64,000 nucleotides of DNA, from NCBI RefSeq assembly GCF_000299395.1, contig NC_018656.1:806001-870000 (forward strand). Direction: 5' to 3'. Below, one piece after another: positions 14,367 to 15,330 of the stretch. This DNA is from Candidatus Nitrosopumilus sediminis. GTDB taxonomy: Archaea > Thermoproteota > Nitrososphaeria > Nitrososphaerales > Nitrosopumilaceae. The notes under the pieces were generated by a model, which worked only from the letters and a program-made list of their open reading frames with translations, searched no databases and had not been told where the DNA came from. The position numbers were made by a program, and so were the translations under genes. How positions within the stretch are numbered: the first letter of the stretch is position 1; the number at the start of each line of letters is the position of its first letter.

Positions 14367-14903
14367 TTATTGTTTTAATTTCATGAATAACAAATCATAT
14401 TTTGATTGCTGCTCAACATTCAGGCCATAATTTGTTTCGTCATGGTATTTCAAAGACTTTTCATCATACAGCTGTTGTAACTTTTCAACCTCAGCATTAA
14501 TCATCTTTCCAGAATCCTCCTTTGCAAATTGTTTTCGTTGCTCCTCATTTTGACCTCGAGTGGGAAAATGTTTTGAATAAAATTGTTCTTGTAATTTAAC
14601 GATATTCTCATTTTTGACTAATTCAGCAAGGTCAAAAGTTCCCTGTTCATGTTTTAGTAATGAATCAGTGGCCGCAGTTAATCGCACCCAAGAAAGCAAA
14701 GGATGAAACTCTACAAAAATACGAATATCCTCAATAAAGAAAACAATTTGCTCACCTATTTTTTCAGAATTCACAGTCCAAGTAAATCTGTATTTGATGA
14801 CGCTGTGTGAGTCTTCAAAGACTGCAGGATTAGATTCGGCTTGAAAATCAGACCACCTCAGAGTGAATTCAGGAGCCCATTCCAAAGTGGTATTTTCAGC
14901 CAT
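14367..14903 (-). CDS. DUF922-like protein with altered HEQ motif
   Basis: 178 residues. RWSDFQAESNPAVFEDS near the N terminus and LLKHEQGTFDLAELV (about 82-96) resemble DUF922, a putative zinc-protease-like family. The family's HEQxH has become HEQGT, losing a likely ligand. The C-terminal half is a charged helical region. No signal peptide is visible. The family call comes from motif memory and needs a profile search. Confidence 0.55.
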   Translation of the reverse strand: MAENTTLEWAPEFTLRWSDFQAESNPAVFEDSHSVIKYRFTWTVNSEKIGEQIVFFIEDIRIFVEFHPLLSWVRLTAATDSLLKHEQGTFDLAELVKNENIVKLQEQFYSKHFPTRGQNEEQRKQFAKEDSGKMINAEVEKLQQLYDEKSLKYHDETNYGLNVEQQSKYDLLFMKLKQ

Positions 14904-15098
14904 GATAGACTCTATTTCACTGAGAATAAAATTATTCTTGTATATTTTGAGATAAATTCATTTTTTATGAAATAAAGACTTGGAAAATATTATACACATT
15001 ATTAGAAAATTTTAGGCTCAATTAAACCAAGAATAAAAAATGGATCGCTTTTTCAACCCTTTTTGATCAAAATTCAAGACATGTTTTATTTTAAGAAT

Positions 15099-15104
15099 TT
15101 TTAA
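15099..15104 (+). promoter_or_regulatory. TATA-like box for the structured RNA
   Basis: TTTAAG centred at 15101.5, exactly 26.5 nt before the first base of the long stem at 15128. This is the same spacing seen at leaderless genes in this window. Confidence 0.5.
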
Positions 15105-15127
15105 GAATAGAAATCAATACGAATTTT

Positions 15128-15210
15128 GAAAGCAAGGTGATTGCGGATTTGACATCCAAACGTAACCCCCAAAGGGCCGATGATAAAGGATGTCAAATTT
15201 GCTTGCTTTC
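15128..15210 (+). ncRNA. Structured RNA candidate with its own promoter
   Basis: GAAAGCAA (15128-15135) pairs with TTGCTTTC (15203-15210). GCGGATTTGACATCC (15143-15157) pairs over 15 positions, including two G-U, with GGATGTCAAATTTGC (15188-15202). The loop of about 30 nt contains CCC..GGG. A 7-nt bulge lies on the 5' side. It does not show C/D boxes or a 3' ACA and matches no family I know. The next gene has a separate promoter, so this looks like an independent RNA rather than a leader. Confidence 0.55.
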
Positions 15211-15252
15211 TTAATTCCAAACTATTAATTTCAGCAAAATCAAGGGTTTATC

Positions 15253-15330
15253 ATGATGACAAAGTTTTATGCGTGGATGGGTATTTCAGTAGCAGCGTTA
15301 ATTGTAGGACTATTTCTATTATTTAGTTAA
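15253..15330 (+). CDS. 25-residue membrane peptide
   Basis: The frame MMTKFYAWMGISVAALIVGL continues with FLLFS, one membrane span with almost no soluble part. ATTAAT at 15224-15229 is 26.5 nt upstream of the ATG, giving a leaderless unit separate from the RNA before it. Its stop overlaps the stop of the convergent protease gene. Confidence 0.5.
   Translation: MMTKFYAWMGISVAALIVGLFLLFS

Follow-up and report, generated by a model that had tools for sequence, protein, structure and literature searches.

The 64,000-nucleotide stretch of Candidatus Nitrosopumilus sediminis DNA analyzed here (positions 806,001 to 870,000 of NC_018656.1; "the window" below) contains a structured RNA whose secondary structure is maintained on the + strand by compensatory base changes among its relatives. 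With a probability of roughly 0.6, we take it to be an independently transcribed RNA of about 90-100 nt that has its own conserved promoter and acts in trans as a regulator. It represents an RNA family that is new to Rfam and, within the open literature searched, to print. A preliminary description of this DNA, made by inspection of the letters, had proposed an independent structured RNA at 15099-15215; the folded RNA does lie inside that interval, but the first 20-25 bases of the interval are promoter and spacer. Table 1 gives the positions of the parts of the locus.

Table 1. Features of the RNA locus (positions within the window)
Feature	Position	Strand	Basis or remark
178-codon gene	14367-14903	-	orientation divergent from the RNA at almost every locus
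Promoter-like block, consensus GGATCATTTTTTCAACCCATTTTGATCAAAnnTCAAGACATGTTTTATTTTAAGAATTTTT	15042-15103	+	62 bases; most conserved DNA of the locus
TATA-like box TATTTTAAGA	15087-15096	+	right end of the block; conserved
Predicted unpaired 5' end of the transcript	15118-15127	+	deduced from TATA spacing
Outer stem, 5' strand GAAAGCAAG	15128-15136	+	pairs with 15202-15210; alignment covariation
Asymmetric 5' bulge GTGATTGCGG	15137-15146	+	opposite 15199-15201
Inner stem, 5' strand ATTTGACATCC	15147-15157	+	double-sided changes in 10 of 11 pairs
Apical mini-hairpin ACCC / loop CCAAA (15169-15173) / GGGC	15165-15177	+	
Inner stem, 3' strand GGATGTCAAAT	15188-15198	+	covariation in alignment
Internal loop, 3' side TTG (UUG in RNA)	15199-15201	+	strongly conserved
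Outer stem, 3' strand CTTGCTTTC	15202-15210	+	covariation in alignment
TATA-like box AAACTATTAAT belonging to the 25-codon gene	15219-15229	+	outside the RNA; lost where the gene is lost
25-codon leaderless gene MMTKFYAWMGISVAALIVGLFLLFS	15253-15330	+	own promoter (predicted); conserved

Fold and covariation of the RNA

On the + strand, 15128-15210 forms a hairpin in which two stems stack, with a minimum free energy of -33.6 kcal/mol (z -4.1), a stability that is matched by 1 of 200 shuffles, and the folding z averages -3.1 across 107 members of the family. The architecture originally proposed, in which outer and inner stems stack with one bulge, there is a stem of 15 pairs and the loop contains a CCC/GGG pairing, is all present in this sequence; the 15 pairs are those of the inner stem, 11 of them conserved, and the outer stem is formed by the pairing GAAAGCAAG/CUUGCUUUC. 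No clear U-run terminator follows the stem.

Are these stems maintained as structure in other genomes? RNAalifold predicts 22 pairs on a MAFFT alignment, 18 of them with compensatory changes, and in the named 27-pair structure 95.4% of the alignment cells are paired and double-sided changes occur in 19 pairs (108 cells in all). Not one of these measures was attained by any of 500 shuffles, and controls in which the 3' strand is slid along its partner pair in only 25-47% of cells. When the changes are placed on a tree of the neighboring 178-codon protein, about 62 double switches are reconstructed for 17 of the pairs, as compared with 3-11 for the slid controls. Compensatory changes in relatives, on which the preliminary description had staked its proposal, are thus present in strength. 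The stems are conserved in sequence as well as in structure, and G-U pairs are retained on the + strand. The consensus fold has an energy of -18.5 kcal/mol on the + strand versus -7.8 on the - strand, and when the other genera are aligned on their own the values are -19.4 versus -9.3; an RNA made from the - strand was rejected because of this poor fold across the alignment and its repetition in the other genera.

The apical loop CCAAA is kept in 102 of 106 loci, and it stays unchanged as the short stem below it switches between CCC/GGG, CUC/GAG and UUC/GAA, or to UCCC/GGGA in other genera. In two genomes of one sister genus (loci L151 and L157) CCAAA has been replaced, and a new GUAUC/GAUAC stem there seems to close the top of the hairpin; the loop is altered in two further copies, so it is not needed everywhere. 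Since each reading frame is interrupted by stops in at least half of the 107 members and single-base insertions and deletions are common, the RNA region is not coding, and a small protein gene across it was rejected for want of a conserved open frame in these members.

Relatives and known RNA families

With 136 bases of the locus as query, BLASTN retrieved clear homologues, 69-93% identical, from about 60 genomes of the genus, and a pattern scan of named genomes found 43 contigs labelled Nitrosopumilus, Nitrosomarinus, marine group I, Thaumarchaeota, Nitrososphaerota or archaea; a single bacterial contig from that scan proved to be a chance match that has no stems. The covariance search in related genomes that the preliminary description had suggested, run with a model built from 58 sequences, identified the RNA in 79 of the 95 Nitrosopumilus genomes, nearly always in single copy, and also outside the genus, in g34, g40 and g42, three other genera of the family. 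Among genus genomes of good quality (completeness of at least 90% and contamination of at most 5%) it was found in 53 of 56. A wider covariance model added no genus in the family or the order, so that the total is 4 of the 22 family genera, and the RNA was not found in the other 18. Diverged copies were sought beside the homologue of the 178-codon gene in three of the genera without matches, and the only match there, of 15.6 bits, was taken as chance. Vertical inheritance of one copy of an RNA gene within Nitrosopumilus and its three sister genera best explains this distribution. A viral or mobile element was rejected, as viral contigs contain no match to the RNA, the copy number is one and synteny is conserved.

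A few copies show decay: in locus L053 the RNA is followed immediately, at 2143-2235, by an incomplete and decayed duplicate of itself, and there are also decayed copies in L191 and L193, both of one sister genus. Of the closed genomes G000, G078, G060, G052, G013, G036, G007, G006, G161 and G172, most carry the locus at a relative position of 0.46-0.53 along the contig. Such a mid-contig locus is possibly opposite the replication origin, although it may be plain synteny; a replication terminus site at this position was considered and gained no support from the skew profile of the window.

The claim that the RNA belongs to no known family holds against Rfam 15, in which neither the window nor 20 diverse relatives gave a match at gathering score. 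When a 500-base zoom on the locus was searched at E<=10, nothing was better than E 0.78, and the sub-threshold matches (E 0.8-6) were to snoRNA and miRNA models and to one staphylococcal sRNA model. There is no tRNA in the whole window. RNase P RNA and SRP RNA, which are also conserved, structured and chromosomally encoded, are longer (about 280 and 310 nt) and both lie elsewhere in the same genome with scores above their family cut-offs, so identity with either was rejected. The open literature that we searched contains no report of the RNA; subscription papers were outside that search and may hold an earlier mention.

Upstream block and predicted start

The most conserved part of the locus is the 62-base block upstream of the RNA, whose mean pairwise identity is 84.5% and which has many invariant positions among 103 loci; the corresponding identities are 76.5% for the RNA, 38% for the spacer before the next ORF and 29% for the DNA further upstream. 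Neither strand of the block at 15042-15103 yields a consensus RNA fold, and the block was for that reason rejected as a part of the RNA. There is no second copy of it in its own genome (two matches to its right half with three mismatches were dismissed, as no similar block surrounds them and one is clearly within coding sequence), and the promoters of the RNase P and SRP RNAs do not resemble it. Judged from its sequence and spacing, the best explanation of the block is a putative promoter of the RNA's own, at a fixed distance from the hairpin: the distance from TTTTA to the stem is 38-40 nt in 88 loci. The left part of the block contains a repeat, TTTTTCAA and TTTTGATC 11 bp apart, that might serve a dimeric regulator. 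A short TAGGCTCA motif at 15009-15021 of the window, about 110 nt before the RNA, is also kept in most genomes.

The start of transcription can be estimated as follows: the leaderless 25-codon gene downstream has its TATA-like box about 27 nt ahead of its start codon, and the same spacing from the conserved TATA-like box at 15087-15096 predicts that the RNA starts near 15118, some 10 nt upstream of the outer stem. The preliminary description had transcription begin precisely at the first base of that stem. A second TTTAAGAATA at 15100-15109 would fit such a start, but it is not conserved among relatives, and a start exactly at the stem is therefore doubtful.

Transcription unit and possible roles

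The neighbors of the RNA bear directly on its independence. The 25-codon gene encodes a short hydrophobic peptide (roughly M-x-x-KFYxxMGISxxALxVGFxLLF) that has no Pfam family and is found at about 70 of 106 loci in three genera. This gene and its own box AAACTATTAAT are both present in 68 of the 106 loci and are both gone from 26, which nevertheless keep the RNA and the upstream block; all nine members of genus g42 keep the RNA without the peptide. At many of these 26 loci a convergent gene comes next, with no + strand ORF of at least 60 codons within 700 nt, and in one sister genus a 306-codon gene comes after the RNA, so the gene that follows it differs between genera. The 178-codon protein on the left has no significant Pfam match, and its stretch HEQGTFDLAE recalls DUF922-type proteins. 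Many genomes have a conserved 67-codon gene, absent from the window, that separates the 178-codon gene from the RNA and is located about 300 nt to the left of the latter in L021-L048 and others. Because the RNA is kept without the 25-codon gene or its box and the left neighbor is divergent, the RNA is very probably its own transcription unit, in agreement with the earlier claim that it is not simply the leader of the 25-codon gene.

The reading that we prefer would work as follows: transcription would begin at about 15118 on the + strand, and the stacked stems would expose the apical CCAAA loop, likely the contact site, and perhaps also the 5' bulge for binding to a partner, be it a protein or another RNA, so that the RNA would act in trans as a regulatory RNA. 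The length of the promoter block suggests that synthesis of the RNA is itself switched, and a dedicated regulator would do so through this block. Might the apical strand simply pair with messages? Its reverse complement (one 11-mer, sought in 14 genomes) has about one non-self match per genome, and these matches are not orthologous; since no conserved targets of this strand were found, simple antisense pairing by that segment is less likely. The main rival, which we rate as rather unlikely, is that the RNA is the structural or scaffold RNA of a ribonucleoprotein, either specific to this clade or one that titrates RNA polymerase or a regulator, and does not regulate messages. A protein-bound structural role fits about equally well with the single copy, the near-universal presence in the clade, the stems kept in both sequence and structure, the conserved loop and the missing antisense target. 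Against it, the failure to find the RNA in 18 of 22 family genera would be odd for a housekeeping RNA, and the RNase P and SRP RNAs of this genome are present elsewhere.

The other explanations have little probability. A cis-acting leader, such as a riboswitch or attenuator, whose transcript would run on from the RNA promoter into a downstream gene, would suit the two thirds or so of loci in which the 25-codon gene follows on the same strand and the sister genus with the 306-codon gene, but the 25-codon gene is preceded by a TATA-like box of its own, the RNA persists at 26 loci that lack that gene, many of them face a convergent gene with the nearest + strand ORF (at least 60 codons) over 700 nt off, and the downstream gene varies between genera; the RNA is thus not confined to the 5' UTR of a conserved downstream gene, and we hold this explanation to be very unlikely. 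The peptide's adjacency in most genomes, together with its small size and hydrophobicity, also brings to mind a type I toxin-antitoxin pair in which the RNA would be the antitoxin or regulator; the RNA is not antisense to the peptide gene, however, and it persists in the 26 loci without the peptide, including all nine of g42, and this explanation shares the lowest probability that we gave to any. Hardly more credible is an atypical C/D or H/ACA box guide RNA. Guide RNAs abound in archaea, are about as long as this RNA and frequently escape Rfam, and a hairpin with an internal loop recalls the H/ACA type, but an ACA within 14 nt past the stem occurs in only 6 of 105 members, a C box at the 5' end in none of 105 and a D box at the 3' end in 1 of 105, which bears out the original statement that hallmarks of both classes are lacking, and the 3' side of the internal loop, the conserved UUG, is with 3 nt too short for the two-sided pocket of such a guide. 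The fact that the best-conserved part of the locus, the upstream block, has no RNA fold could point to a DNA element that is not transcribed, such as a protein-binding site, a cruciform or a replication site; a cruciform would not favor G-U pairs on one strand, so their retention on the + strand counts against such an element, as do the very unequal folds of the two strands and the fixed spacing that suits a promoter, and it is as improbable as the antitoxin.

Comparison with known archaeal RNAs is instructive. Like C/D box RNAs, the present RNA is small, single copy and intergenic, but it has long stems and no C or D boxes; it resembles H/ACA RNAs in size and in having a hairpin with an internal loop, but lacks their ACA box and two-sided pocket. 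Archaea also have intergenic trans-acting sRNAs, of which sRNA162 of Methanosarcina is an example, with their own promoter, a stem-loop and a conserved unpaired loop. The present RNA is like these in being intergenic and non-coding, in its stem-loop with a conserved unpaired loop and in its (predicted) own promoter; it differs in lineage, it has no known sequence or structural relation to them, and its conserved promoter is much longer. Nearest in spirit is Tan1, a 229 nt non-coding RNA of marine group II Euryarchaeota that was detected as a transcript (PMC5069720). Both are structured non-coding RNAs of abundant marine archaea with no known function, but Tan1 belongs to another phylum, is longer and has been seen as a transcript, while the RNA of about 90-100 nt described here is known from genomes alone.

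What would this RNA mean for its hosts? An RNA that is retained in single copy by 53 of 56 good-quality genomes of the genus, and whose putative promoter has changed even less than the RNA, offers a concrete entry point, and the covariance model and alignment could become an Rfam family. Few cells in the ocean are as abundant as the ammonia-oxidizing archaea of this clade, and to our knowledge little has been learned about post-transcriptional gene regulation in them. We offer as a tentative possibility that a regulator bound to the 62-bp block switches the RNA, and that the RNA in turn uses its CCAAA loop to control a core process of the cell; if this is true, the regulator-switched RNA would be the signature of an unknown regulatory or ribonucleoprotein system in ammonia-oxidizing archaea.
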